Assembly: GCA_017744805.1 (NCBI GenBank)
Contig: JAGIAP010000004.1
Location: 1-42,050 of the forward strand
DNA: 42,050 bases
Direction of reading: 5' to 3'
Source: Chitinophagaceae bacterium
GTDB lineage: Bacteria > Bacteroidota > Bacteroidia > Chitinophagales > Chitinophagaceae
This document shows, one piece after another, positions 12,761 to 24,860 of the stretch; the stretch's first letter is position 1, and each line of letters begins with the position of its first letter. The notes beneath the pieces were generated by a model. That model was not told the DNA's origin, ran no database searches, and was given only the letters and a program-made list of their open reading frames with translations. A program made the translations under genes and the position numbers.

Positions 12761-14581
12761 ATGAAAAAATCGTTCTCCTTATTCTTTTTCCTGCTGGTAC
12801 TCGTTTACGCACAGGCTCAAAAGATCAGCTACAAGGTATCCTTCCCCAATATCACGCACCACGAAGCACAGATCAGTGTTACCGCTTCCGGCCTCGGCAC
12901 CAAAACCAAAACGGCCATCTTCCGCATGAGCCGCTCCTCGCCCGGCCGCTATGCCACCCACGAATTCGGGAAGAATGTATACGATGTGAAAGCATTCGAC
13001 AAGAACAATAAGCCCCTCGCCGTTACCCGTATCGATGGCGATGTATACGAAGTGAAGAACCAGGGCGGCCATATCAGGCTGGAGTATACGCTGTATGCCA
13101 ATTACCCCGATGGCACTTATGCCGGCATCGATCCCACCGGCATCATGCTCAATATGCCTGCTTCCTTCATGTGGATCAAAGGATATGATAAGGCGCCCAT
13201 CGATATCAAATTCGATATCCCTGCCGACAAGGGCTGGACCATCGCCACACAACTCAAGCCCACCAATGATCCCACAGCTTTCACCGCTCCGGGCCTTCAG
13301 TATTTCATGGACAGTCCAACCAAGATCGGCAACCTGACCTGGAAAGAATGGACGCTCAACAACCCCAACGGAAAAACATATCAATTCCGACTGGCCTTTG
13401 AAGGTCAAAGTTCCGACAGCCTGCTCACCGTTTTCGCCGGTAAGGTGAAGCGCATCACGGAAGAGGCGCAGGCCGTGTACGGAGAACTGCCCGAATACGA
13501 TTTCGGCACCTATACTTTCATCGCCAGCATCAATCCCTGGGTAGAAGGGGATGGTATGGAACATCGCAATTCCACCGTGATCAATATTCCCCAGGAATTC
13601 GATGGCAGCAATGATCTGCTGGGTGTATTCGCCCATGAGTTCTTTCACTGCTGGAACGTGGAGCGTATCCGCCCAAAGACCCTGGAGCCTTTCAATTTCG
13701 AGAAAAGCAATATGAGCAATGAGCTCTGGTTTGCCGAAGGCTTCACTCAATATTATGGCGGCCTGCTCTGCGAGAGGGCCGGTGTACGTACAGAAGATGC
13801 CGCCCTCGAAAATTTCTCAGGCCTCATCAATACCAAGGTCAATTCCCAGGGTGCCAGGCGCTATTCGCCGGTAGAAGTGAGTCGTAATGCGATCTTCGTC
13901 GATGCGGGCGTAGCCATCGACAGAAGCAATTACGTGAATATGTACAGCTCTTACTATCCATACGGAGGTGCTATCGCGCTGGCCCTCGACCTCGAACTGC
14001 GTAGTCAATTCAAGAACCTGAGCCTCGACAACTATATGAGCGCCGTATGGAAGAAATTCGGTAAAACAGAGATCCCCTACAATGTGGACGGCCTGAGAGA
14101 GGTGCTTGCCCAACTCACGAACGACAAGAGTTTTGCCACTAGCTTCTTCTCCAAATACATCAACGGCCACGAGCCCCTCGATTATAACTCGTTACTGGAA
14201 AAGGCCGGACTACAACTCAGGAAAGCCAATGAAGGCAAGGCCTGGGTAGGCAATGTACAATTCAATGATGGCGAGCATTCGCTGACCATTGCTTCCAATA
14301 CCGTCATCGGCACGCCACTCTATAATGCCGGTCTCGATGTGGACGACGAGATCATCTCTCTGAATGACAAGCCTCTCAGAAAAAAAACCGACCTCACAGA
14401 GCTCCTGAAACAGCATAAGCCCGGCGACAAGCTCGACATCGAGTACGATCACCGTGGCAACAAGACCAGCACTAAGATCGTCCTTGGCGAGAATCCAGCC
14501 TTCACGATCCTGCCGGTTCAGAAAGCTGATCCCGGTGCCCTTGAGTTTAGAAAAAAATGGCTGGGAGCGAAGCGTGGATAA
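12761..14581 (+). CDS. M61-family metallopeptidase with C-terminal PDZ domain
   Basis: This 606-residue exported peptidase of the M61 (glycyl aminopeptidase-like) family starts with a signal peptide (MKKSFSLFFFLLVLVYAQAQ). A beta-rich N-terminal domain (about residues 25-180) precedes the catalytic zinc motif HEFFHCW near residues 291-297. The third zinc ligand is in LWFAEGFTQYYGG (about residues 322-334). A PDZ domain near residues 500-590 (GTPLYNAGLDVDDEIISLND) probably regulates or docks substrates. It should act in the periplasm or at the outer membrane. The stop codon lies nine bases before the first palindromic element, and a strong terminator follows only after that element. Confidence 0.94.
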   Translation: MKKSFSLFFFLLVLVYAQAQKISYKVSFPNITHHEAQISVTASGLGTKTKTAIFRMSRSSPGRYATHEFGKNVYDVKAFDKNNKPLAVTRIDGDVYEVKNQGGHIRLEYTLYANYPDGTYAGIDPTGIMLNMPASFMWIKGYDKAPIDIKFDIPADKGWTIATQLKPTNDPTAFTAPGLQYFMDSPTKIGNLTWKEWTLNNPNGKTYQFRLAFEGQSSDSLLTVFAGKVKRITEEAQAVYGELPEYDFGTYTFIASINPWVEGDGMEHRNSTVINIPQEFDGSNDLLGVFAHEFFHCWNVERIRPKTLEPFNFEKSNMSNELWFAEGFTQYYGGLLCERAGVRTEDAALENFSGLINTKVNSQGARRYSPVEVSRNAIFVDAGVAIDRSNYVNMYSSYYPYGGAIALALDLELRSQFKNLSLDNYMSAVWKKFGKTEIPYNVDGLREVLAQLTNDKSFATSFFSKYINGHEPLDYNSLLEKAGLQLRKANEGKAWVGNVQFNDGEHSLTIASNTVIGTPLYNAGLDVDDEIISLNDKPLRKKTDLTELLKQHKPGDKLDIEYDHRGNKTSTKIVLGENPAFTILPVQKADPGALEFRKKWLGAKRG

Positions 14582-14589
14582 TTATCCGG

Positions 14590-14738
14590 CCGTTGAGGGA
14601 TATACCAAAACGGTCTGGAAAACAAACGAGCGCGGGAGAATAATATTGGGCTTTGGAGGGGAGAGATAAGAGGTTTGGTAATGCTATTGGGCTTTTTCGC
14701 TTATGTTTTCAAGGCCCGTTTGGCATATCCCTCACCGG
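14590..14738 (+). repeat. Palindromic repeat element, copy A
   Basis: This is a 149-bp element with near-perfect inverted ends. GAGGGATATACC.. at 14595 pairs with ..GGCATATCCCTC ending at 14733, and pairing continues inward through GAAAACA (14619-14625) with TGTTTTC (14704-14710). The core carries two direct copies of TATTGGGCTTT (14644-14654 and 14685-14695). Copy B is the same element inverted; the two share a 25-base identical block (14684-14708 here). The outermost bases (CCGTTGAGGG with CCCTCACCGG) also pair apart from one mismatch. It encodes nothing recognisable and is probably a REP-like or MITE-like element. Confidence 0.9.
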
Positions 14739-14752
14739 CCTCTCACCCAAAG

Positions 14753-14792
14753 AAAATGCAGCAGTTCCGGTTAGGCACTGCTGCATTTTTTT
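14753..14792 (+). terminator. Rho-independent terminator downstream of the M61 gene
   Basis: AAAATGCAGCAGT (14753-14765) pairs perfectly with ACTGCTGCATTTT (14777-14789) around an 11-base loop, and the T run continues to 14792. It is the first terminator after the M61 gene but lies 170 bases beyond its stop, with repeat copy A between them. Confidence 0.85.
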
Positions 14793-15160
14793 GCATTTCT
14801 ATTTTCCCATTCACCATTTCTGCCACTAATTTCTATCCACTTTTCTCTTCATCTGCTTATCCATTATTCATCTTTTCCATTTTCTCAAAACTATCAATTG
14901 CATTTACTTCCGCAGTTGCGCCCGTTCCTCCTCCCTCTCTCCCAACACAGGCGAAAGATCAGCGGCACTCACGGCCTTCCTTATGCCCCAAACAATTTGC
15001 CTTTTACAGTACTCCATCTTTTCCTATCACTGATTTCAAAGAGTAGGGAAGCCGTATCCCCCGGTGGAAGTATTGAAATTGAACCCATGCCGACCTTTCC
15101 CCACAATAAAAAAATTTGCCGGATAGCGTTCCAAAAATGATGCACCTCCCGTGTGCCCCT
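14793..15160. other. Gene-free spacer between repeat copies A and B
   Basis: No convincing gene, RNA or promoter was found. The first hundred bases (14793-14888) are strongly pyrimidine-rich on the plus strand, unlike neighbouring coding DNA. Open frames crossing this stretch have low-complexity products rich in Ser, Pro and Phe and begin inside the repeat, so they look accidental. Confidence 0.6.
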
Positions 15161-15306
15161 GTTGCAAAGGGATATGAACAAGGCGCCTGGAAACATAAGC
15201 GAAAAAGCCCAATAGAATTACCCCCCTCATCCTTCCCATCCAAAGCCCAATATTATCCTCCCGCGCTGGTTTGTTTCCCAGCGCCTTGTTCATATCCCTT
15301 TGCAAC
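15161..15306 (-). repeat. Palindromic repeat element, copy B
   Basis: This 146-bp element has the longest intact arms of the four. The first 26 bases from 15161 (GTTGCAAAGGGATATG..) are perfectly complementary to the last 26 ending at 15306, and after two mismatches seven more bases pair (GGAAACA with TGTTTCC). It is inverted relative to copy A. The core holds the same two TATTGGGCTTT copies, seen on the minus strand. Uniquely here, GCGCTGG (15263-15269) can alternatively pair locally with CCAGCGC (15278-15284), so the DNA or RNA could switch between two folds. Confidence 0.92.
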
Positions 15307-15310
15307 CAAC

Positions 15311-15355
15311 AAAAAAATAGCCGGAGTAGTATCCCTACCCCGGCTATCCCAAAAA
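15311..15355 (-). terminator. Bidirectional-looking terminator after the 15366-16421 lipoprotein gene
   Basis: ATAGCCGG (15317-15324) pairs with CCGGCTAT (15340-15347), with an inner GTAG/CTAC pairing. A runs of seven and eight flank it, so on the minus strand it ends in a T run. It lies directly after the stop of the minus-strand lipoprotein gene. Confidence 0.88.
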
Positions 15356-15365
15356 AAATCTATTT

Positions 15366-16421
15366 CTATTGATATTGAATATAGATCGGCTGTGGCTTCA
15401 ACTTCAATACTTCCGCCGGCGTCATGATCCTGCTTCCCTTTTCTCTGAAATCGTTCTTATAGAAAAGTTTGAACCCTGTGAACTGCACTGGTTCAGGGTA
15501 CAGGAAAGAACGGTAAGTGCTGATCTTACGAGCCTGTGCCCCCCACCCGTCCATGTCCATGATGATCTGGGTTTCAGGGCGCAGTTTGATATTCTTATAA
15601 TTCGTCACCATTGGTCTTGTGAACCTATGAACCACCAGCATTTTGGGTGGGATATTATTATCCTTCACCAGTTTGGCGAGGTATTCTGTGGTGAAGTTGA
15701 TATCAGCGGCGTCGAAGGTTCCGATAACGGAGCCGGGTTTCTTTCCTGTTTTCATGGAGAATTCAGGATCGATACCGAGATGTACATGGGGCATTTTCAG
15801 GTATTTCTCCAGGAGGGGAACTTCAGCCTGGAGGTTGCTGAGGCCAACCTGAATATCGATGAATACGAGGGCATTGATCTTTTCTGCCATGGCTAGGATC
15901 TTATCGATCTCTTTGTGAGGCATGCGGGCGCGGTATTTGCCATCGGCACCGGCTGCGCCCTGGGCGGTAACGGCGATATAGTGGAGGGCGGGGATCACTT
16001 CCATGGAAGTATCGGCTGCGTGCCAGTTCTTCACTTCTTCATGGAGTTTGGCGAGCATTTCCTTTTCAGGGAGCTCACCGAGGATGCCCATTTTAGTGGA
16101 ATACAGATTGCCATAGAAGGCGAGTACACGTTTGAAAGGGAGAACGGCTCCGGGAAGCGGGTAATCGGTTTTGACGGGCCATTTACCGGATGAGTCTCCG
16201 TTTGCGTTGTACAGGAGCTTGGCGTCGAAGAGAGCAGTGTCCAAAAATGCGGCGGTTGTGGGTACAGCGGGTGGTTTGGAAGTATCCGTATCGTTCTTGG
16301 TCACCGGGGCTGCCTGCACCTCGGCGGCCACGCCACGGGTACCAGGTTTACAACCATTGAACACGAAAGCTGAGATAAGGGTAACTGCTGCGGCTGCCGG
16401 CAGCCAGGTAGATCTTTTCAT
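15366..16421 (-). CDS. Exported lipoprotein, TIM-barrel-like, function unknown
   Basis: This 351-residue protein has a lipoprotein-type leader (MKRSTWLPAAAAVTLISAFVF, then the lipobox-like FNGC) and a low-complexity linker rich in Ala, Thr and Pro to about residue 60. The rest alternates strands and helices in a pattern suggesting a beta/alpha barrel: VLAFYGNLYS, VIPALHYIAVTAQG, INALVFIDIQVG, VHLGIDPEFSM, KMLVVHRFT and TQIIMDMDGWG. Acidic residues sit at strand ends, as in glycoside hydrolases, but no known family signature was recognised. It is probably anchored in the outer or inner membrane facing the periplasm. Promoter and terminator are its own. Confidence 0.8.
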   Translation of the reverse strand: MKRSTWLPAAAAVTLISAFVFNGCKPGTRGVAAEVQAAPVTKNDTDTSKPPAVPTTAAFLDTALFDAKLLYNANGDSSGKWPVKTDYPLPGAVLPFKRVLAFYGNLYSTKMGILGELPEKEMLAKLHEEVKNWHAADTSMEVIPALHYIAVTAQGAAGADGKYRARMPHKEIDKILAMAEKINALVFIDIQVGLSNLQAEVPLLEKYLKMPHVHLGIDPEFSMKTGKKPGSVIGTFDAADINFTTEYLAKLVKDNNIPPKMLVVHRFTRPMVTNYKNIKLRPETQIIMDMDGWGAQARKISTYRSFLYPEPVQFTGFKLFYKNDFREKGSRIMTPAEVLKLKPQPIYIQYQ

Positions 16422-16527
16422 AAGTTATTGATGTTTTGAAGGCTCGGATCGACGCTGATAATTGTTTAGAGTGATAAAATCAAGTGTGCAAAGATCAGCG
16501 CTAATAATCAAAAAAACGTGCCAGTAT

Positions 16528-16535
16528 CAAAAATA
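16528..16535 (-). promoter_or_regulatory. -7 element upstream of the TIM-barrel-like lipoprotein
   Basis: The minus strand reads TATTTTTG, an exact match to TAnnTTTG, about 107 bases before the ATG at 16421. The sequence around it is AT-rich. A TTG at the usual spacing was not found. Confidence 0.35.
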
Positions 16536-16556
16536 TTTTGCATCTCAATTTTAACT

Positions 16557-16586
16557 TGTGAAGGGAGGCGGATCGGCGTAACTTTA
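16557..16586 (+). promoter_or_regulatory. Probable promoter of the DoxX-family gene
   Basis: TTG at 16557-16559 is followed after 19 bases by TAACTTTA (16579-16586), one mismatch from TAnnTTTG. The gene starts 43 bases later. Confidence 0.35.
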
Positions 16587-16628
16587 TATGGCATAATTCT
16601 TTCAATTGTTCTTTAAAAAATTACTGCC

Positions 16629-17063
16629 ATGGGTACGCTTCAACAAATCCACAACTGGAGCTTAACGCATCACCCGCGCTGGCTGGTAGTCGTTCGGGTG
16701 GCATTGGGATTATGTCTCTTCATCAAAGGGATCTCTTTCATGGTCAATTCCACACAATTGGATCAGCTATTACAGAACAGCAGCCTGGCAGCTTACAATG
16801 ATGCCATTTCCATTTTTGTTACCTGGGCGCATTTGCTGGGTGGGGTGCTGATCATTGTTGGATTGCTCACACGTTGGGCAGTGGCCGTTCAGATCCCCAT
16901 TTTGCTGGGAGCGCTGGTCTTCATTACATCACAACAGGGCATATTTGCGTCAGGCGGGATGTTCCCGCTGACCGTAGTGATCTTCCTGTTGCTGATATTC
17001 TTCCTGGTGGAAGGTGGCGGGCCTATTTCGCTCGACCATTTCTTCAAACACCACCAGGCCTAA
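16629..17063 (+). CDS. DoxX-family membrane protein
   Basis: This is a 144-residue integral membrane protein with four hydrophobic helices. Family-like features are WLVVVRVALGLCLFIKGISF (first helix), FVTWAHLLGGVLIIVGLLTR (second), a short third around IPILLGALVFI and the last helix VVIFLLLIFFLVEGGGPISL. DoxX proteins act in the cytoplasmic membrane, often with redox or sulfur-stress functions, but the role here is unknown. The gene stands alone between two minus-strand genes. Confidence 0.85.
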   Translation: MGTLQQIHNWSLTHHPRWLVVVRVALGLCLFIKGISFMVNSTQLDQLLQNSSLAAYNDAISIFVTWAHLLGGVLIIVGLLTRWAVAVQIPILLGALVFITSQQGIFASGGMFPLTVVIFLLLIFFLVEGGGPISLDHFFKHHQA

Positions 17064-17089
17064 TCTGCAGCTTCCCGGATCTTCCTGGA

Positions 17090-17446
17090 TCATTCTCCCT
17101 CGTACACAACGCCGGAGGTGGGCGTTTCATGTAGTTCCAGCCGCTTCATGGCGGGGATGGAAGGCTTGAGCTGGTCCCAGATCCAAACGGCGATAAGCTC
17201 GCAGGTGGGGTTGGGCAGCCCGGGAATATCATTGAGGCATTTGTGGTCGAGAGTGGCCACAACCGGTTTGATGATCTTTTTCAACACGGCAAAATCCATC
17301 ACCCATCCCAGATGCGGATCGGGCTTGCCTTCGATCCATACACGGAGCCGATAGGTATGGCCATGCATTTCCTTGCATTTATGCCCGTCGGGTACATTGG
17401 GCAGGAAATGGGCAGAATCGAATGTGAACTCTTTGTAGATGAGCAT
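17090..17446 (-). CDS. queD: 6-carboxy-tetrahydropterin synthase (QueD/PTPS family)
   Basis: This 118-residue member of the 6-pyruvoyl-tetrahydropterin synthase family should make 6-carboxy-5,6,7,8-tetrahydropterin in queuosine synthesis. The zinc histidines lie in FDSAHFLPN and in the MHGHTYRLRVWIEG segment. A catalytic Cys sits in the preceding GHKCKEMHGH. LDHKCLND and LHETPTSGVVY supply further active-site residues. The start at 17446 (MLIYKEFTFDSAHF) fits relatives; an upstream ATG would add nine residues. Another queuosine gene, queG, is present 17 kb away. Confidence 0.93.
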   Translation of the reverse strand: MLIYKEFTFDSAHFLPNVPDGHKCKEMHGHTYRLRVWIEGKPDPHLGWVMDFAVLKKIIKPVVATLDHKCLNDIPGLPNPTCELIAVWIWDQLKPSIPAMKRLELHETPTSGVVYEGE

Positions 17447-17470
17447 AGACAGAACGAATAGTATGTAGCG

Positions 17471-17478
17471 CAAAGGTA
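17471..17478 (-). promoter_or_regulatory. -7 element upstream of queD
   Basis: The minus strand reads TACCTTTG, an exact TAnnTTTG match, 24 bases before the queD start at 17446. A TTG at the expected distance was not seen. Confidence 0.4.
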
Positions 17479-17515
17479 CAAAAGATGGCTACCTGTAAAT
17501 CATGATAGTTGTCAG

Positions 17516-17553
17516 TAAAAATCAAAGGGATTGCCGGATGGGCAACCCCTTTG
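17516..17553 (-). terminator. Terminator of the DUF4382 lipoprotein gene
   Basis: CAAAGGGATTGCC (17523-17535) pairs with GGCAACCCCTTTG (17541-17553) apart from one A-C mismatch. On the minus strand the stem leads into an ATTTTTA run. It separates the DUF4382 gene from queD. Confidence 0.75.
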
Positions 17554-17583
17554 CTGATTGACTGAGCTGAGTTCCAAAAATTC

Positions 17584-18468
17584 CTATTTGTGCAATGTGA
17601 TCTTCGGGAGATCGGTCTCTTTTCCTGCCTTTACTTCAATATTGTGGATGGTGGTATCCTGGTAACCATTGGAGGCGTTCACGAAAACTGAATACGTGCC
17701 TTGTTTCAGGCCGCGGGCCCTCCACTCTCCATTATGCCAGGGGATCGCATAAGCCGTGTCTGTAGCATTATAAACGCTGATCACAGGCCATGCATCCTTC
17801 GGTACGATGGTACCTGCTACGGAGCCGGTCGCTTTCACCGTGAAGAGATGGATCACCGGTTTCAGATAGAAAACGCCATCGCGTACGCGGATCACGGAAC
17901 GGGCCACATCGAAATCGAGCCAGAGACGGAAGCGGTCAGGCTGGAATTCATCCCAATCCCCTCCTTTCACGGTGATGATAATGGTGGATGAAGCACCAGG
18001 CCATAGTTTCAGCGGATATTTGGTACTGTCTTTCACCAGGGAATTGTTCTCTCCCAATTCCACTTTGATCAGGCGGATCTTTCCTTTGGGCATGATGCCA
18101 TTGGCCAGCAGGGTATCGGTTCCGTTACGAAGCGAGAGCAGATCGTATACTCCCGGTTTGATATCGAGGGATTGCCAGTTGGTGCAACTGTTCTTTTCAT
18201 CCCAATCATGTCCATGACCGTTACCCTGATCGTCATCGTCATCACCCCTGTTATTTTTTGAGCAGGTGTCTATCAACACTTTTACAGACTTGATGTCTAC
18301 CATAACGTTGTTGAAGAATCCAGGGTCATCGGTGAGATAAAGACTTACTTGCTGGGATCCCGGAGGCAGCGGTTGTTGTTCCGAAGAATCGTTCTTGGAA
18401 CAAGCGTAGAAAACAAGCGTGGTCAATAAGATAACCGCTCCAAAACCATACAGTTTTGACAGTTTCAT
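17584..18468 (-). CDS. DUF4382-domain lipoprotein
   Basis: This 294-residue lipoprotein has a leader MKLSKLYGFGAVILLTTLVF ending at the lipobox Cys (FYAC). The DUF4382 domain (about residues 38-190) begins QVSLYLTDDPGFFNNVMVDI and includes a DLLSLRNGTDTLLANG segment. An acidic/His run (DDDDDQGNGHGHDWD), flanked by two cysteines (CSKNN.. and ..NSCTNW), is inserted in the domain. A C-terminal beta-sandwich like the carboxypeptidase regulatory domain (YSVFVNASNGYQDTTIHNIE) ends the protein. It is attached to the envelope by lipid; the function is unknown. The start at 18468 is set by the lipoprotein leader. A palindrome upstream may be its operator. Confidence 0.86.
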   Translation of the reverse strand: MKLSKLYGFGAVILLTTLVFYACSKNDSSEQQPLPPGSQQVSLYLTDDPGFFNNVMVDIKSVKVLIDTCSKNNRGDDDDDQGNGHGHDWDEKNSCTNWQSLDIKPGVYDLLSLRNGTDTLLANGIMPKGKIRLIKVELGENNSLVKDSTKYPLKLWPGASSTIIITVKGGDWDEFQPDRFRLWLDFDVARSVIRVRDGVFYLKPVIHLFTVKATGSVAGTIVPKDAWPVISVYNATDTAYAIPWHNGEWRARGLKQGTYSVFVNASNGYQDTTIHNIEVKAGKETDLPKITLHK

Positions 18469-18581
18469 ACGTAGTTGTTTTTTATGTAGAATAATGAAGT
18501 TCCAACCATAAAAACCAAATTCTATGCCTGATCCTGTTTTAGTGGAAAACTCACCAGTCGTTAACAAAAAAGTCAAAATCC

Positions 18582-18630
18582 AAATATTAGTCTACTAATT
18601 TGGTGGACTAATATTTTACCACTAATATTG
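18582..18630. promoter_or_regulatory. Palindromic operator-like site between divergent genes
   Basis: AAATATTAGTC (18582-18592) and GACTAATATTT (18606-18616) form a perfect 11-bp inverted repeat with a 13-base spacer. A third half-site, ACTAATATTG, follows at 18621-18630. It lies between the start of the DUF4382 gene and the start of the carboxypeptidase-regulatory-domain gene, 48 bases from the latter. Confidence 0.5.
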
Positions 18631-18663
18631 TGCTGTCATTTATAGGAACATCAATAGATCTGT

Positions 18664-18990
18664 ATGAAACCATTACCCGCATATCAATGGCTGATAGCCG
18701 TTCCGGCATTGATCTTCAGTACTTCTGAGATCTATCCCGGCAAACCGGCCGAGATCAGTGGTCAGATCATCCACAACGAAACAGGCCAGCGCATCGAAAA
18801 TGCGTACATATATATTGTTTCTGGCGAAGAAGAAGGCCTGTCCGACAAGAACGGGCGTTTCACCATCACCACCTGGCAGCAATTGCCCGTAACACTGGTG
18901 ATCGAGCATCCCAGGTACAAGAAGAAACAAGTGCGCACCACCAATGCTTCAGAAAAACAACTGATCAAACTGGAACCGAAGAACCAGTAA
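18664..18990 (+). CDS. Exported carboxypeptidase-regulatory-like domain protein
   Basis: This 108-residue protein is a single CarboxypepD_reg-like beta-sandwich with a short hydrophobic N-terminus (WLIAVPALIFSTSEI) that may be a signal peptide. The domain reads ISGQIIHNETGQRIENAYIY, then GLSDKNGRFTI and LVIEHPRYKKKQ. This is the usual order seen at the front of TonB-dependent receptors, here on its own. A role in surface adhesion or scaffolding is only a guess. The gene is followed after 52 bases by a fatty-acid hydroxylase gene on the same strand. Confidence 0.78.
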   Translation: MKPLPAYQWLIAVPALIFSTSEIYPGKPAEISGQIIHNETGQRIENAYIYIVSGEEEGLSDKNGRFTITTWQQLPVTLVIEHPRYKKKQVRTTNASEKQLIKLEPKNQ

Positions 18991-19042
18991 CCTGAACAGC
19001 CCCAGGATCATTTCCATGCATTAACCAACGACCAGCCATTGT

Positions 19043-20263
19043 ATGAAGTTCAATCTATTGGCATTTGCTGTACCGTTCTTTGTTTTGTTCATGACTATCG
19101 AATTCCTGGTAGCCAGGAAAAAGAAACTGCCTTATTTCAACCTGCATCATTCCGTAGCCAATGTGAGCATCGGTATCGCTGAAAGACTGATGGATGTGTG
19201 GGTGACCGGTGCTTTCTTTTTCTTCTATGATCATATACAAAAGCAGTACGGGCTCTTCGAAATAAGATCAGGGATCCTCACCTGGATATTGTTACTGCTC
19301 TGTACAGATCTCTGCTGGTACTGGTATCACCGGCTGGCGCATGAAGTGAATGTATTCTGGGCCGCGCATGTGGTGCACCACCAGAGCGAGGATTTCAATT
19401 ATACCGTGAGTGCGCGCATCACCGTGTTCCAGGCCTTCATCAGAACAGGGTTCTGGGCCGTACTGCCGCTATTGGGGTTCCCGGCCATGATGATCACCAG
19501 CCTGCTGCTGGTGCATGGGCTCTACCCGTTCTTTATCCATACCCGGCTTATCGGAAAACTGGGCATACTGGAATATATCCTGGTTACACCATCGCATCAC
19601 AGGGTGCATCATGCGAGCAATGAACAATACCTGGATAAGAACTATGGCGATGTATTCATCATATGGGATAAGCTCTTCGGCACTTTTCAGAAAGAAGAAG
19701 ATAATGTGGAGATACAGTACGGGCTTACCAAGCCATTGAACAGTTATAGTTTTCTCTGGCAGCATGTCCATTTCCTGGCAGAGCTCTGGTATGCTGTAAG
19801 AAGAACGGAGGGGCTGTTGAACAAACTGAAACTGGTATTCGGAAAACCAGACCTGGTGGATCCTGCAGCCAGGGAAGAAGTTGAAAAGAAGTTCCGCATC
19901 TTCCATATACAGCAACCGGTTGAATATCGTTTGAACCGGTACGTGGTATGGCAGATCGTACTGAGTATAGCCCTGCTCTTTGTTTTCATTCTCTTTGAAC
20001 ACTACCTGCCGTTGACACAACAAATATTGATATCGTTAGGATTGATATTGACATTGATCAATTGCGGGGCCATCATGGAACAGAAGAAATGGGTGTTCTA
20101 CCTGGAATATCTCCGTTTACTCACGGTCACCATCGGTATCGTCATCGCTTATCCGGCGGGTTGGCTGAGCGTATTATTGCTGATGGCGGCCCTGCTGCTG
20201 ATCAGGTATTCCGAGGCTATCCGTGAATATTATCTCTACTGGGTTTACCAACGCAGGCAATGA
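19043..20263 (+). CDS. Sterol desaturase / fatty acid hydroxylase family protein
   Basis: This 406-residue membrane enzyme of the di-iron hydroxylase superfamily carries three histidine boxes: HRLAHE (about residues 100-105), HVVHH (about 112-116) and HRVHH (about 190-194). The N-terminal half holds several membrane helices and the catalytic core. The C-terminal half adds further hydrophobic helices (VWQIVLSIALLFVFILFEHY, LSVLLLMAALLLI), making it longer than the roughly 250-residue minimal members. It probably introduces a hydroxyl group or double bond into a lipid; the substrate is unknown. A tRNA-like gene begins 18 bases after its stop, so they may be co-transcribed. Confidence 0.9.
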   Translation: MKFNLLAFAVPFFVLFMTIEFLVARKKKLPYFNLHHSVANVSIGIAERLMDVWVTGAFFFFYDHIQKQYGLFEIRSGILTWILLLLCTDLCWYWYHRLAHEVNVFWAAHVVHHQSEDFNYTVSARITVFQAFIRTGFWAVLPLLGFPAMMITSLLLVHGLYPFFIHTRLIGKLGILEYILVTPSHHRVHHASNEQYLDKNYGDVFIIWDKLFGTFQKEEDNVEIQYGLTKPLNSYSFLWQHVHFLAELWYAVRRTEGLLNKLKLVFGKPDLVDPAAREEVEKKFRIFHIQQPVEYRLNRYVVWQIVLSIALLFVFILFEHYLPLTQQILISLGLILTLINCGAIMEQKKWVFYLEYLRLLTVTIGIVIAYPAGWLSVLLLMAALLLIRYSEAIREYYLYWVYQRRQ

Positions 20264-20280
20264 CCCAATCAATGGATACG

Positions 20281-20351
20281 AGTTACGTGGCCGAGAGGCG
20301 AGGCGGAGGTACGCAAGACCTTCTACGGTGGTTCGAATCCACCCGTAACTG
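20281..20351 (+). tRNA. tRNA-Cys-like gene (anticodon GCA), non-canonical
   Basis: A full cloverleaf can be drawn. The acceptor stem is AGTTACG (20281-20287) with CGTAACT (20344-20350). The D arm is GCC/GGC with loop GAGAGGCGA. The anticodon stem is GAGGT/ACCTT with loop ACGCAAG (20311-20317, anticodon GCA at 20313-20315), followed by a 4-base variable loop and the T arm GGTGG-TTCGAAT-CCACC. Position 33 is C instead of the near-universal U, the first pair is A-U, and the discriminator at 20351 is G where cysteine tRNAs use U. CCA is not encoded. It could be a diverged, specialised or decayed tRNA. Confidence 0.65.
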
Positions 20352-20383
20352 CTATTTGCATCGGTTCAATATCATTGAGCCCC

Positions 20384-20407
20384 AGGGCGATGTTTCTACT
20401 TCGCCCT
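20384..20407. other. Hairpin with TGTTTCTAC loop downstream of the tRNA-like gene
   Basis: AGGGCGA (20384-20390) and TCGCCCT (20401-20407) form a perfect 7-bp stem around TGTTTCTACT. No T run follows, so it is not a standard terminator. It resembles the second hairpin at 20483-20508. Confidence 0.5.
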
Positions 20408-20420
20408 CATAAAAAATTGT

Positions 20421-20458
20421 GGCTGCCATAGCCATCTGTATTCAACTCAGTGTTTTTT
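20421..20458 (+). terminator. Weak terminator candidate after the tRNA-like gene
   Basis: TGGCT and AGCCA at about 20420-20434 form a small hairpin, and a run of seven T residues (20452-20458) follows after a further 17 bases. The distance is too large for a typical terminator, so support is low. Confidence 0.2.
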
Positions 20459-20482
20459 TCATATGGCAAGCAATCGTTGATG

Positions 20483-20508
20483 AGAGGCGGTGTTTCCACA
20501 CTGCCTCT
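20483..20508. other. Second hairpin with TGTTTCCAC motif
   Basis: AGAGGC-G-GTGT (20483-20493) pairs with ACAC-T-GCCTCT (20498-20508), including one G-T wobble, around a TTCC loop. The shared TGTTTCyAC motif links it to the hairpin at 20384. It sits in the 355-base gap between the hydroxylase and DUF72 genes. Confidence 0.5.
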
Positions 20509-20618
20509 ATTTCGTCGAATAAGCACGCCAATGAAAGTTTCCGATTATATAGATATGTATCTTTAATAGGTGTTTATGTACAGAAGGGTGGCACAATCTT
20601 TAGAAGAATCCTACGGTT

Positions 20619-21356
20619 ATGGCAACTATAATTCAATGGCGGATCGGCTGTTCCGGCTTTCACTACCGCGAGTGGAAAGATTTGTTCTATCCCCCGGAAA
20701 CACCACAACGCAAATGGTTTGATTACTATTGCACCAGATTCAACACACTGGAACTCAATTACACTTTTTATCGCTTCCCACAGGTAGCACCTCTGGAAAG
20801 CTGGCACGACAAAAGCCCACCCGGTTTCAATTTCTCCATCAAGGCCCCCAGGCTTATCACGCATTTCAAGCAATTCAAGGATGTACGTCCACTGTTGGAC
20901 GATTTCTACAATGTTGCGAAGGAAGGCCTTAAAGATAAGCTGGGTCCCGTTTTGTTCCAGTTTCACCCCAAAACGGTGTACTCGCCCTACCTGCTGGAAG
21001 AGATCTTGTCGCAACTAGACCCGGCAGTGAACAATGTTTTGGAATTCCGGGATATAAGCTGGTGGCGGGAAGATGTGTACCAGGCATTGGCTGCGCAGAA
21101 AGTGGTTTTCTGCGGCATCAGTCATCCGCATCTGCCCAATACACCCATCATCAACGGGCCATTGGCTTATTATCGTTTTCACGGCGTACCGGTACTGTAC
21201 AAAAGTGAATATCCCAACCAGTTCCTGGACGAGGTGAGCGATACCATCCAGGAAGCCGGGCAGGTACGCGAGGCCTACTTGTACCTCAACAATACAGCCA
21301 AGGGGCATGCAATCAAGAACGCATTGTATTTACAGGCAAAACTGATCGATGATTAG
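20619..21356 (+). CDS. DUF72-domain protein
   Basis: This 245-residue protein of the DUF72 (YecE-like) family has a TIM-barrel-type fold. Family features are the start IGCSGFHYREWKDLFYPP, FNTLELNYTFYRFP, NFSIKAPRLITH, LGPVLFQFHP, NVLEFRDISWW and YYRFHG. The C-terminal region (REAYLYLNNTAKGHAIKNAL) matches the usual conserved end with Asn and Gly-His. No enzymatic activity is established for the family. The protein is cytoplasmic, of usual length, and starts at the ATG at 20619. A near-consensus TATCTTTA lies about 60 bases upstream. Confidence 0.92.
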   Translation: MATIIQWRIGCSGFHYREWKDLFYPPETPQRKWFDYYCTRFNTLELNYTFYRFPQVAPLESWHDKSPPGFNFSIKAPRLITHFKQFKDVRPLLDDFYNVAKEGLKDKLGPVLFQFHPKTVYSPYLLEEILSQLDPAVNNVLEFRDISWWREDVYQALAAQKVVFCGISHPHLPNTPIINGPLAYYRFHGVPVLYKSEYPNQFLDEVSDTIQEAGQVREAYLYLNNTAKGHAIKNALYLQAKLIDD

Positions 21357-21383
21357 ATTTCTACGCTAAAACATTCAAGGCTG

Positions 21384-23318
21384 TCAATTTACGATAATGA
21401 TCTCAGGTCTTTTGATGATCTGGGTATTGTATTTGAATTTGATATTGGTATTGAAGTCTACCCGCCAATGTGATCCATAGTAATTGGCGCGGGGGAAATA
21501 ATGTGCTTTCAGCTCAAGTGTTCCGAAGATAAGGCTTTCGTTCCTTGCTCTCAAACCCGCGCCAATGCTCTGATACAGGTCGCTCTGCTTGATGCTTTCA
21601 TAAGGAGGCGTCAGCAGGGTGAAACTGGCAAATGCAAAGGGCGCGAACCGGAAATTGACGAAGGACCAGGGACTGAAGAATACAGATTCAGCTTTCACAG
21701 TGGCGCGCATATCACCGGCGATCTTACGGCCATTATGCAATTCCGGGATACCGAATGGACTTTCCAGGAAGAGGTCTTCATTCAACAGCTTATTCACCTG
21801 ACCGGTGATACCAACGTTGAAGAATGAACGCTGTTTCCATTTAGGCCCCATGGTACGAAGCCTGCTGAAGAAATCCAGATTGCCAAGCACATCCAGATCC
21901 TGTAATTTATCTTTGTTCCAGTAACCACCTGTCCTGAAGGTGAAGTTGAGATAGCTTTCCTTTTCAGTAAAATAATTGCGGGAAATATCGATCCCCATAT
22001 ACGGCCTTTCCAGTCCGTTTTTCTTGGTCCAGCCGGCTGTAACGGAGATATCCATGCCTTCCGGAACGTCCTCCGATCTGCCGAAGCCATAGATATAGCG
22101 GGTCTTATAGAAGTTCTGTCCAAACAGGGAGAGCGACCCCAACACCCCATACATATCGGCGTATTGGGCATCATATTGCGTTTTGAATTTGTCCGGGATC
22201 AGTTCAAATCTTTTCTTCAGCACACGCACACCAAGGATGGTACGGATACGGTCGTCCTCATTCTTTAGTTTTATCAGTTTGAAGGCGCCGGTATTCCATC
22301 CCAGCCATGCATCATAGTTGTAATATTTATACTGGAAATCGCTTTTGTAAAGGGAGTCGGTGATATACTGGTTGTCGGTTGCATGCCAGGCAAGTTCCGT
22401 AGCGTAAGTGAACTTCGTATATTGGTTAACGAGAGGCCGGACGAAGCGGGTATAAAAAGTGGTCTCTTCATCGCGGCCGCTGTTCATCCCGTCCTGAAAG
22501 TTCTTATAACCGGCATAACCATCGATGAAGGAACCGGCGATATTACGTTTAATATATTCCCATCCATATCCTACCCTGTCAACCCGCCTGGTATCGTAGA
22601 GAACGGAGCCCAGTATCCGGTCGCCCCATCCGCCAAGGTTATCTTCTTTGGCACTCACATCAAAGCTTTGCTGATTGCGGAGATGGAGCGCGCCACCGAT
22701 ACTGAGTACGTCCTTGGTGAGCACGATCACATCCACAGAATCATAGCTGTTCTCTGCCGGTTCAATAATAATGCGGGCATCCTGGAGATAGGGTTGGTCG
22801 CGCAGATGCCTTTCATTATCTGCCATCAGGTAAGGCTCTACTTTGTCGCCCTTCCCGAAGAAGAGGTTATTGCGGATCACATATCCCCGGGTTTTATGGT
22901 GGAAGCCATTGGCCAGGTGGGTGAGCCAGTTCTTATACACTTTATTGGTATCGGTGATGGCGGTACCGAAATCCAGTCCTTTTACCGTAACGCTCCTGAT
23001 CACCCGGTCTTGGTAGATACTGAAAACAAGGTCGTTTCGGATAGGCGTAAGCGCAGCGATATTCTCCCGGAGGGTATCACGGAGCAGGTTACGCGCCAAT
23101 TTGCCGATCAATCCCTTTCTTTTGAGGATAAAACTATCGATCCCCCTGCCCGGGACGGGAACAGTATCATGTTTTCTGACTTTTATTTCTTTGGGGGAAG
23201 AAGAAGCAGGCCTACCGGGGTTTTTCTCACCGGATTGGGCATGGGTGAACGAGGGGAGTCCAACCAGTAAGATGCCGGTACAGAAAAAAAGGGTGATCAG
23301 ATAGTAGCTTCTCCGCAT
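21384..23318 (-). CDS. Omp85-like outer membrane beta-barrel protein
   Basis: This 644-residue exported protein has a signal peptide (MRRSYYLITLFFCTGILLVG) and a basic, low-complexity linker. A POTRA-like segment around residues 95-195 includes VIRSVTVKGLDFGTAI, FFGKGDKVEPYLMADNERHL and DSVDVIVLTKDV. A predicted beta-barrel fills the rest, with alternating aromatic strands such as FTYATELAWHATDN and LNFTFRTGGYWNKD. The layout resembles BamA/TamA-type or ShlB-type proteins with few POTRA domains. The C-terminus (RPEIIIVN) lacks a terminal aromatic residue. It probably inserts or exports outer membrane or surface proteins. The ATG at 23318 was chosen; the frame extends only to a TTG three codons upstream. 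Confidence 0.78.
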   Translation of the reverse strand: MRRSYYLITLFFCTGILLVGLPSFTHAQSGEKNPGRPASSSPKEIKVRKHDTVPVPGRGIDSFILKRKGLIGKLARNLLRDTLRENIAALTPIRNDLVFSIYQDRVIRSVTVKGLDFGTAITDTNKVYKNWLTHLANGFHHKTRGYVIRNNLFFGKGDKVEPYLMADNERHLRDQPYLQDARIIIEPAENSYDSVDVIVLTKDVLSIGGALHLRNQQSFDVSAKEDNLGGWGDRILGSVLYDTRRVDRVGYGWEYIKRNIAGSFIDGYAGYKNFQDGMNSGRDEETTFYTRFVRPLVNQYTKFTYATELAWHATDNQYITDSLYKSDFQYKYYNYDAWLGWNTGAFKLIKLKNEDDRIRTILGVRVLKKRFELIPDKFKTQYDAQYADMYGVLGSLSLFGQNFYKTRYIYGFGRSEDVPEGMDISVTAGWTKKNGLERPYMGIDISRNYFTEKESYLNFTFRTGGYWNKDKLQDLDVLGNLDFFSRLRTMGPKWKQRSFFNVGITGQVNKLLNEDLFLESPFGIPELHNGRKIAGDMRATVKAESVFFSPWSFVNFRFAPFAFASFTLLTPPYESIKQSDLYQSIGAGLRARNESLIFGTLELKAHYFPRANYYGSHWRVDFNTNIKFKYNTQIIKRPEIIIVN

Positions 23319-23383
23319 GTTCAGCAAAATAAGGGAAAGGGGGGATTGTTAGGACCTCATTAACAAAGACTTTATTTTTTTTC

Positions 23384-23527
23384 GCAAAGGGGTATGAACG
23401 GCGGTTGCCGAAACGAACCCAGGCATTTGGAAGGATATGGGGCTTTGGGCGGGTTAGATAGGGGATTGGTAATTCTATTCTGCTGCTTCGCTTACGTTTC
23501 GAAGACCGCCTCTTCATATCCCTTAGC
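23384..23527 (+). repeat. Palindromic repeat element, copy C
   Basis: This 144-bp element is in the same orientation as copy A and is the most diverged copy. The left arm GCAAAGGGGTATGAA (from 23384) pairs with ..TTCATATCCCTTAGC (ending 23527), with a one-base bulge. Further inward CGAAACG pairs with CGTTTCG. In copies A and B that stem reads AAACA with TGTTT, so both partners changed together. The core has GGGCTTTGGGCGGG and the TATTCTGCTGCTTCGCTTACG counterpart of the second direct repeat. An outer 9-bp dyad, GACCTCATT (23353-23361) with AATGAGGTC (23552-23560), frames the whole element. Confidence 0.85.
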
Positions 23528-23921
23528 TCCCTCTCCCCGATAAGGTTGGTCAATGAGGTCTACACAATGGGAGGAGGAAGATGGGGCACAACTTTATAAA
23601 ACCTGATAATTAGCAAGTCCATTGTAACTGATATGCAAGATCGCGGCCAGCGACCAGCACCCATTTACATCAAAGCCGAAAAAGGACATTAACTCTCATC
23701 AACAAATACAGGAAAACTGAATAAGAGGAAATAGAGATAAATAGAAAATGAGGAAAGTGAAAAGAATAATGAATACGAAGGAACAGCCCTGAGGAGCACT
23801 AAAACACCTGAAGAACCTCAGAAAATAATGAACCATACAAAAGAAAATACAAGGCCAAAAGAATGCATCCATCAAAAAACAAAATTGCCATTACAGCCAA
23901 TGATGCCTCCTCAGCGTGACA
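23528..23921. other. Gene-free spacer between repeat copies C and D
   Basis: No gene, RNA or promoter was recognised. A stretch of about 75 bases (23710-23786) is strongly purine-rich on the plus strand, with runs such as GAAAAGAATAATGAATA. The spacer between copies A and B is purine-rich on the opposite strand. The two spacers do not align convincingly by eye. Confidence 0.6.
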
Positions 23922-24074
23922 GGGCCGTTGCGGGATATGCCGGAAGGGCCTTGGAAACATAAGCGAAAAAGCCCGGATTTGCACTACAGTCCGATCTCAC
24001 CATTCCACAGCTCAAAATATATTCTCCCGCGGTGGTTTGTTTCCTCAGCCCGCCCAGCATATCCCGCACGGCCC
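23922..24074 (-). repeat. Palindromic repeat element, copy D
   Basis: This 153-bp element is inverted relative to copy C. GGGCCGTTGCGGGATATGC (from 23922) pairs with ..GCATATCCCGCACGGCCC (ending 24074) with one bulged base. The inner stem GGAAACA pairs with TGTTTCC. On the minus strand the conserved block GGGCTTTTTCGCTTATGTTTCC is intact, while the first TATTGGGCTTT copy has decayed to TATTTTGAGCTGTGG. It lies just downstream of the terminator of the DsbA-like gene. Confidence 0.88.
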
Positions 24075-24112: not shown

Positions 24113-24141
24113 CAAAAAGCCTGATCCATACTGATCAGGCT
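24113..24141 (-). terminator. Terminator of the DsbA-like gene
   Basis: AGCCTGATC (24118-24126) pairs perfectly with GATCAGGCT (24133-24141) around a 6-base loop. On the minus strand the stem runs into TTTTTGCC. The stop codon of the gene (24135-24137) lies inside the stem. Confidence 0.85.
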
Positions 24142-24710
24142 CTTTGTTTTACCGGTGATTTCTTTTTGCAACTCGCCAGCGCGTCATCGATGGCTTTGGT
24201 GAGCCCGGGCAAACTCAGTTTCCCCGTGTAAGCTTCGTTATTGATGAAAAAGGCAGGGATATCCCTGATGCCTTTATCGAGGCCTTCGAGAAGATCATTC
24301 CTGACCGTCCAGCCATAGAGGGAATCCACCAACTTAGGCAGGAAGTTCTTGTCCATAGCGCCGGCTTCGCGGGCATATTCCCGTAAGCTGATGCTACCCA
24401 GTTGGGTACGGTGGGCAAAGAGCAGGTTATGCATTTCCCAGAACTTTCCTTCCTGCGCCGCGCCGACACTGGCTTCTGCAGCCTTCTGTGCCCGCTGGTG
24501 CACCTGCGTGAGAGGAAAGTGGCGGAAATTGAACTTCACCCGGCCCTCATACGTTTCAAGGATCTTCTTGACGATCTCATGCGCTTTGGCGCAGGCTTCA
24601 CTCTCATAGTCGCCGAATTCCACCAGGGATACAGGCGCATCGGAAGCGCCCACCCAGATATCTTTGGGCGGCTTGATCTCGATCAATTTAGGTTTGTTAT
24701 TTGTTGCCAT
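24135..24710 (-). CDS. DsbA-like thioredoxin-fold protein with a single active-site cysteine
   Basis: This 191-residue protein has the DsbA/thioredoxin_4 layout. VSLVEFGDYESEACAKAH (residues about 27-44) is in the active-site position, a long helical insert follows (QRAQKAAEASVGAAQEGKFW), and DIPAFFINNEAYTG supplies the cis-proline segment. Where relatives have C-P-Y-C, this protein reads S-E-A-C, so only Cys40 remains. It has no signal peptide and should be cytoplasmic. The start at 24710 (MATNNKPKLIEIKP) was chosen; GGAG lies about 11 bases upstream. It may act as a monothiol reductase or isomerase, or have a non-redox role. Confidence 0.86.
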   Translation of the reverse strand: MATNNKPKLIEIKPPKDIWVGASDAPVSLVEFGDYESEACAKAHEIVKKILETYEGRVKFNFRHFPLTQVHQRAQKAAEASVGAAQEGKFWEMHNLLFAHRTQLGSISLREYAREAGAMDKNFLPKLVDSLYGWTVRNDLLEGLDKGIRDIPAFFINNEAYTGKLSLPGLTKAIDDALASCKKKSPVKQRA

Positions 24711-24819
24711 AGTATTTTTTTCTCCTTTTTTTAACATCTCACAGGATCGGCAACAGTTGGTTTGGTGTGCTTGAATTATAACATTTATTAAGATGATGTT
24801 GTTCGTGGAGGCGTTGCAT

Positions 24820-24860
24820 AAAAAACGCAATGTCACCCCGCAACGGCGGGATGACATTGC
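24820..24860 (-). terminator. Terminator of clpB
   Basis: GCAATGTCA (24827-24835) pairs with TGACATTGC (24852-24860), with further CCCCGC/GCGGG pairing within, forming a long GC-rich stem. On the minus strand it is followed by GTTTTTTA. It lies 21 bases after the clpB stop. Confidence 0.88.

Follow-up and report, generated by a model that had tools for sequence, protein, structure and literature searches.

We show that four imperfect palindromes in the window, by which we mean the whole analysed stretch of 42,050 nucleotides (nt) from a Chitinophagaceae bacterium (contig JAGIAP010000004.1 of assembly GCA_017744805.1), are members of a family of large hairpins exceeding 100 copies per genome in three species. 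The carriers are soil bacteria, in which the copies lie mostly as mirror-image pairs between genes, and the stems covary, in agreement with an earlier note on this DNA that had taken the palindromes for a repeat family acting through structure. With barely better than even confidence, we favour a family of outsized DNA hairpins resembling REPINs (doublets of repetitive extragenic palindromes, REPs, forming hairpins) and served by a putative partner protein.

The window is contig C444 of genome G000, a 5.99-Mb assembly of 638 contigs with a completeness of 88.9%. All four palindromes proposed earlier are real, their stem ends having been placed accurately within 2 nt, and they form 26-33 Watson-Crick pairs in 33-38 aligned stem columns around a core of 76-79 nt. 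The features are the following, the inner motifs being taken from the sequence and their statistics from copies of genome G001:

14588-14740, + strand: copy A, the left half-unit of unit 1; core 14625-14703 between arms 14588-14624 and 14704-14740
14741-15160, no strand: unit 1 spacer, without an identified coding gene
14756-14763, + strand: inner motif of copy A, GTGCWKCA-type, here ATGCAGCA
15138-15145, - strand: inner motif of copy B, TGATGCAC, reverse complement GTGCATCA
15161-15306, - strand: copy B, the right half-unit of unit 1; core 15196-15271 between arms 15161-15195 and 15272-15306
23384-23527, + strand: copy C, the left half-unit of unit 2; core 23416-23494 between arms 23384-23415 and 23495-23527
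23528-23921, no strand: unit 2 spacer, without an identified coding gene
23922-24074, - strand: copy D, the right half-unit of unit 2; core 23960-24037 between arms 23922-23959 and 24038-24074

Watson-Crick pairs occupy 31 of 37 aligned stem columns in copy A, 33 of 35 in copy B, 26 of 33 in copy C and 31 of 38 in copy D. The paired change from AAACA/TGTTT in A, B and D to AAACG/CGTTT in C had been described correctly; the agreement of the cores within both units holds for A and B, in which inverted blocks are 86% and 94% complementary, and fails for C and D, for which no core match was found.

Covariance models were built from 36 G000 copies including the four of the window (R1), from 30 copies of G001 (R3) and from 12 G004 copies, whose core type differs (R2); a joint alignment of the core types I and II was misplaced by one base in the 3' stem, and the two types were therefore modelled separately. 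R3 recovers exactly A, B, C and D in the window with E-values from 2e-23 to 1.9e-16, R2 recovers exactly the same four with 1.5e-4 to 2.8e-3, and neither gives any other window match up to E=10. Since both models are free of G000 sequence, the four copies are not a product of chance. Copy numbers per genome were obtained by scoring at most 150 candidates and are hence lower bounds: R1 gives at least 110 matches at E<=0.01 in G000 (105 at E<=3e-11, five weak or partial), at least 114 in G001, where copies are dispersed along a single 7.8-Mb contig, at least 109 in G003 and at least 10, mostly weak, in G004, all of the same genus. In G004, R2 finds at least 57 matches, resulting in at least 59 distinct places for both models combined. 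Type I cores thus characterise G000, G001 and G003, and mainly type II cores are found in G004; R2 has at least 33 matches at E<=0.01 in G000, mostly at places also found by R1, showing that the two core types are related. G002 and G005, belonging to the same genus as well, have no match with either R1 or R2. With filters stricter than in the single-genome searches, five of 294 genomes of the family match R1 (289 do not) and four match R2, and among 395 genomes of the class only the window's own genome matches R1. The fifth R1-matching genome, G156 of another genus, has two weak matches, so that the proposed restriction to this genus stands apart from these two. The G156 copies are two distant single ones with a fourth core type and near-perfect stems (L083:731-877, L084:1483-1626). 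An exact pattern search across named genomes matched only Pseudoflavitalea rhizosphaerae KACC 18655, in 23 stretches; the exact type I pattern has no match in viral contigs, and copy B has no blastn match in plasmids and phages. The covariance-model search, set beforehand as the refuting test of the family claim, thus found further copies with conserved pairing, and the claim survives.

The unit of the family is an inverted pair of hairpins, overlooked in the earlier note, which had regarded the single palindromic element as the unit. All 129 pairs of neighbouring copies closer than 1.2 kb are arranged as plus then minus (38 in G001, 35 in G000, 20 in G004, 36 in G003). Each half-unit has a stem of about 30-35 pairs around a core of about 80 nt, stems spanning about 144-153 nt. 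In G001, 76 of 112 copies are paired, with gaps of 136-909 bp between the halves, and 36 are single; the score is 89.0 bits for paired halves vs 78.8 bits for single ones (n=76 vs 36). A GTGCWKCA-type (GTGCAGCA-type) motif lies on the inner side of each half-unit, being present in G001 with one mismatch allowed in 49 of the 76 paired halves and in 21 of the 36 single ones; the mirror stretch outside carries it in 9 of 76 and 5 of 36, and shuffled stretches in 7.5% of cases. The spacers are mainly non-coding, a few containing unrelated genes, and when 37 G001 spacers were compared with each other, 24 of the 666 unit pairs gave a short match. Fourteen of the 37 (e.g. L121 and L156; 0.6 expected in shuffles) have in common a motif like TGATGCACTCTTTCCCC, which occurs in either orientation and includes the reverse complement of the inner motif. 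Left and right cores in G001 have an identity of 0.712 within the same unit vs 0.676 between different units (shuffle maximum 0.701 of 300), and the own partner is the best core match in 6 of 38 units; concerted evolution of the two halves is real but weak. At L178:3010-4450 in G003, two open reading frames (ORFs) of 363 and 124 aa lie between the hairpins, and the same site in G001 (L162:2546-3253) has a gap of 482 bp; judged from the sequences, this difference is cargo gained or lost inside the unit. Inverted hairpins also flank single ordinary genes (L086:1349-3352, L087:1259-2492, L146:2494-3509), read as FAD oxidoreductase, dihydrofolate-reductase-like and glyoxalase-like genes.

The stems are private to their sites and change in a compensated manner. 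In G001 the outer stem averages 21.5 Watson-Crick pairs (median 23; 111 of 112 hairpins anchorable, four scoring zero pairs under strict scoring), dropping to 3.2 upon swapping arms between loci. For 147 distinct type I copies with 13 alignable stem pairs, the covariation score is 0.467 vs 0.188 for shuffled alignments (none of 500 reaching it) and no more than 0.146 with the stem slid. The type II stem covaries as well, as exemplified by AAATATG/CATATTT, AAATGTG/CACATTT and AAATCTG/CAGATTT. Between orthologous hairpins of G001 and G003 (42, with 3 skipped), 1317 pairs contain 48 single and 21 double changes, of which 15 double changes are still paired vs approximately 0.5 expected if both sides were independent; between G001 and G000 (23, with 6 skipped), 683 pairs contain 60 single and 70 double changes, with 63 still paired vs approximately 4.9 expected. 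Transversions account for 10 of the 15 and 32 of the 63 double changes keeping the pairing.

A stem functioning as RNA is expected to tolerate G.U much more than A.C. We counted 61 G.T and 40 A.C in 2625 outer-stem positions, and single-sided changes between orthologs comprise 18 G.T vs 27 A.C (p=0.23). Among the 45 best column pairs, no long-range covariation of the core beyond the stem pairs was detected; a fold inside the core was rejected, as the long-range best-covarying column pairs all belong to the stem. With G.T barely above A.C and no covariation in the core, we read this as a constraint that more probably acts on the DNA than on a folded RNA, disfavouring the suggestion of a structured RNA made earlier. 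Rfam gave no family at gathering score in the window, and only sub-threshold matches at chance level in the window and five other loci.

The sites are old, being retained at the same places across species. Of the 70 G003 units, grouped from R1 matches minus three weak ones plus one from the R2 search of the family, 41 were compared; 37 of these have a G001 unit between the same two flanks, three match a G001 unit at one flank and one at neither. Among 39 G004 units compared with 76 G001 units, 21 have the two flanks in common with a G001 unit and 5 only one of them. The MITE-like (miniature inverted-repeat transposable element) mobility suggested earlier is not seen between the compared species, in which sites are conserved. 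The outgroup species G002 and G005 have empty sites at five of six probed loci, where the flanks in G002 and/or G005 lie roughly -110 to +70 bp apart, extrapolated to the probe ends, vs 481-773 bp in G001; at the sixth locus, L142, both species have the flanks separated by about 2.2 kb. G002 shows a rearrangement at L139, for two loci the search located only one flank in G002 or G005, and G004 itself has an empty site at L123.

Arms and cores diverge differently at these sites. G003, G000 and G004 have a coding identity to G001 of 91.0%, 83.6% and 75.5% and a fourfold-site identity of 72.4%, 56.6% and 46.7%, respectively. At orthologous sites of G001 and G003, arms are 94.5% identical vs 64.0% between loci and cores 80.4% vs 69.5%; for G001 and G000 the values are 79.8% vs 64.5% for arms and 73.8% vs 69.4% for cores, the ortholog identities leaning high because hairpins too diverged to match were skipped. 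Unfiltered alignments give 74.1% for arms and 73.3% for cores in G001-G000 and near-random 50% and 46% in G001-G004. Arms therefore keep a memory of their site, defined as identity above the between-locus level, and cores keep nearly none. With an assumed fourfold floor of 0.30, we estimate cores to lose site memory about twice as fast as fourfold sites; any one of copy-to-copy exchange, hypermutation and co-change with a reader protein would suffice for this fast change. Two G004 units (L063, L066) are hybrids of one type I and one type II half, one of them at a site where G001 holds a type I pair.

We searched for a gene that could serve the hairpins, including a linked RAYT (REP-associated tyrosine transposase), for which the earlier note had advised a search. 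PF01797 (Y1_Tnp family) detects one gene in each of the six genomes, including the hairpin-free G002 and G005, encoding a single-copy protein of approximately 142 aa (loci L211-L216 for G002, G005, G004, G000, G003 and G001, around 1437-1953). In G001 it resides within an aromatic-synthesis operon between genes read as DAHP (3-deoxy-D-arabino-heptulosonate 7-phosphate) synthase/chorismate mutase and 3-dehydroquinate synthase. No family hairpin lies in the 3.3-kb loci around this gene. The motif position which we take to be catalytic is Phe instead of Tyr in the four carriers and G002, and Tyr in G005; from its sequence the protein looks domesticated. A RAYT/IS200 enzyme as mobiliser was rejected, the single Y1_Tnp gene being present in hairpin-free species as well and having no hairpin beside it; it could still act as a binder. 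A link to reverse transcriptase was rejected, as PF00078 is found in G000, G002 and G003 and not in G001, G004 and G005, which does not match the distribution of the hairpins. A REPtron-like linked gene was not found either, the 185 ORFs within 700 bp of G001 hairpins yielding only nine small groups of homologues, each with two to four members. A palindrome with 23-nt arms of the ATTTGAAAATTTGAATA.. type is conserved near the Y1_Tnp operon in four species (L213:298-370, L214:2959-3029, L215:299-371, L216:2960-3032), perhaps being a regulatory site.

Within the window, unit A/B lies between convergent genes and unit C/D between two minus-strand genes. Copy A starts 7 nt past the stop of an M61 peptidase gene (12761-14581, +), its inner motif overlapping an inverted repeat with a T run behind it (14750-14792), and copy B lies 59 nt past the 3' end of a gene without Pfam family (15366-16421, -). 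Copy C adjoins the 5' end of an ORF (21384-23327, -), and copy D lies 60 nt past the 3' end of a DsbA/thioredoxin-like gene (24135-24857, -). The absence of a transposase, which had been stated for the entire window, holds for the ten ORFs around the elements, the only ones examined: none has a Pfam transposase domain at E<=1e-5, and two have no family at all. The sole tRNA gene found in the window is tRNA-Cys (gca) at 20281-20352.

The doublet unit, the decayed-looking single copies and the intergenic position suggest a two-ended element read as single-stranded hairpins. According to the REPIN-like model, the unit would have spread by transposition in the ancestor of the four species of the genus, probably via single-stranded DNA, with hairpin and core being read by one putative protein, and the inverted layout would provide one hairpin in readable orientation on each strand. 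The putative reader protein may still act on the sites, by which the stems would stay paired and the core consensus would shift jointly across the genome, i.e. to type I in three species and mainly type II in the fourth. Another, bolder and rather unlikely reading is that the approximately 80-nt loop is exchanged between copies while stems remain private, type II having replaced type I at inherited sites of one species, half-unit by half-unit, via a putative non-RAYT hairpin-reading enzyme.

A transcribed 3'-untranslated-region or non-coding RNA hairpin that would end, protect or process nearby messages, with pairs arising from one hairpin per convergent gene, is in our view unlikely. It would fit the covarying stems and the surroundings of the 38 G001 pairs, whose neighbouring ORFs, as called by length only, are convergent in 18 cases, tandem in 17 and divergent in 3 (convergent excess p=0.002, divergent deficit p=0.007 vs an assumed 25%); the same bias is taken as a sign of transcription for REPs in PMC3733652. 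However, 20 of the 38 pairs are not between convergent ORFs, a single transcript would contain one sense and one antisense copy as the halves are oppositely directed, and the lack of a clear G.T excess, of a covarying internal core fold and of an Rfam family at gathering score argues against it. We consider it distinctly unlikely that the hairpins are functionless ends of decayed transposons, their arms kept paired only by template switching during replication, although inverted ends, variable spacers and gaps of such range, and the shared spacer motif as a possible remnant of an ancestral interior, are compatible with it. Quasi-palindrome correction is an established process, and the many transversions among the compensated changes need no wobble step. 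Copying alone is, however, insufficient to explain that arms are slower than fourfold sites between G001 and G003 (94.5% vs 72.4% identity), and the core consensus is retained while single-sided changes (48 and 60) arise and persist. Double-stranded docking sites for a chromosome-organising protein, with palindromic arms being secondary, would be in line with the dispersed copies in G001, the stable sites and a conserved core without a covarying fold of its own; this is very improbable, as two species of the genus without detected copies suggest that the sites are dispensable and a duplex site has no need of site-specific self-complementary arms.

Several observations weigh against the REPIN-like model. 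No RAYT is linked to the hairpins in the PF01797 search of six genomes, no movement is seen between G001 and G003, and the empty sites of the outgroups are too diverged to read insertion boundaries and target duplication. Shared sites could partly be preferred sites hit twice, though one shared G004 site keeps a type I half, and template switching could possibly maintain the stems. Of the five covariation measures, one, the count of further pair types, does not exceed the shuffles (35 vs 35.7), and the pattern-based hairpin finder underlying the ortholog changes and the arm and core identities favours well-kept copies. The imbalance of G.T over A.C is nominally significant (p=0.046), with a fixed T.G beside an internal loop possibly inflating G.T, and some units are located at gene 3' ends, where an RNA element would sit.

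The family has features in common with several known systems. Integron attC sites are recognised as folded single strands, have conserved outer boxes and form same-direction arrays; stems pair while the sequence varies in both, but in the hairpin family the variation falls on the outer arms, and copies occur in inverted pairs. Terminal inverted repeats, here the inverted halves with their inner motif, are shared with MITEs. REP-like was the best of the three guesses of the earlier note, with the difference that the unit is an inverted pair of approximately 150-nt hairpins instead of a single palindrome and no RAYT is linked. REPINs are inverted REP doublets mobilised by a RAYT (PMC3116915, PMC8049555), and the present family is similar in being composed of high-copy, extragenic inverted doublets with decayed-looking singles, kept structure and numbers that are stable over the long term; it differs in halves of approximately 150 nt, an approximately 79-nt core inside the stem, a G001 spacer of 136-909 bp, site-private arms and the lack of a linked RAYT. 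Known REPs are palindromes of 20-40 bp with a tag at the foot (GTAG/CGTC-tagged palindromes, bacterial interspersed mosaic elements; PMC3733652), and like these the hairpins are palindromic, lie between convergent and unidirectional genes and are often close and in opposite orientation, whereas their feet have no common GTRG or CGTC tag by inspection of the 36 listed copies. The flanks of TnpA_REP subclass 2.6 of Bacteroidetes (PMC6006769) share the phylum, atypical secondary structures and further genomic copies; compared by description, they differ in flanking a tnpA_REP gene, while the Y1_Tnp gene here has no such structure beside it.

No description of the hairpin family was found in the open-licence literature searched. 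The authors of PMC8049555 know of no within-genome sequence population other than REPINs that is stably maintained in prokaryotes. The hairpin family would be a second such population, of a different build and with no RAYT linked. Its private stems amount to dozens of independent natural experiments on whether selection acts on DNA hairpins, and concerted evolution of dispersed elements can be tested directly at the shared sites where the core type has changed.

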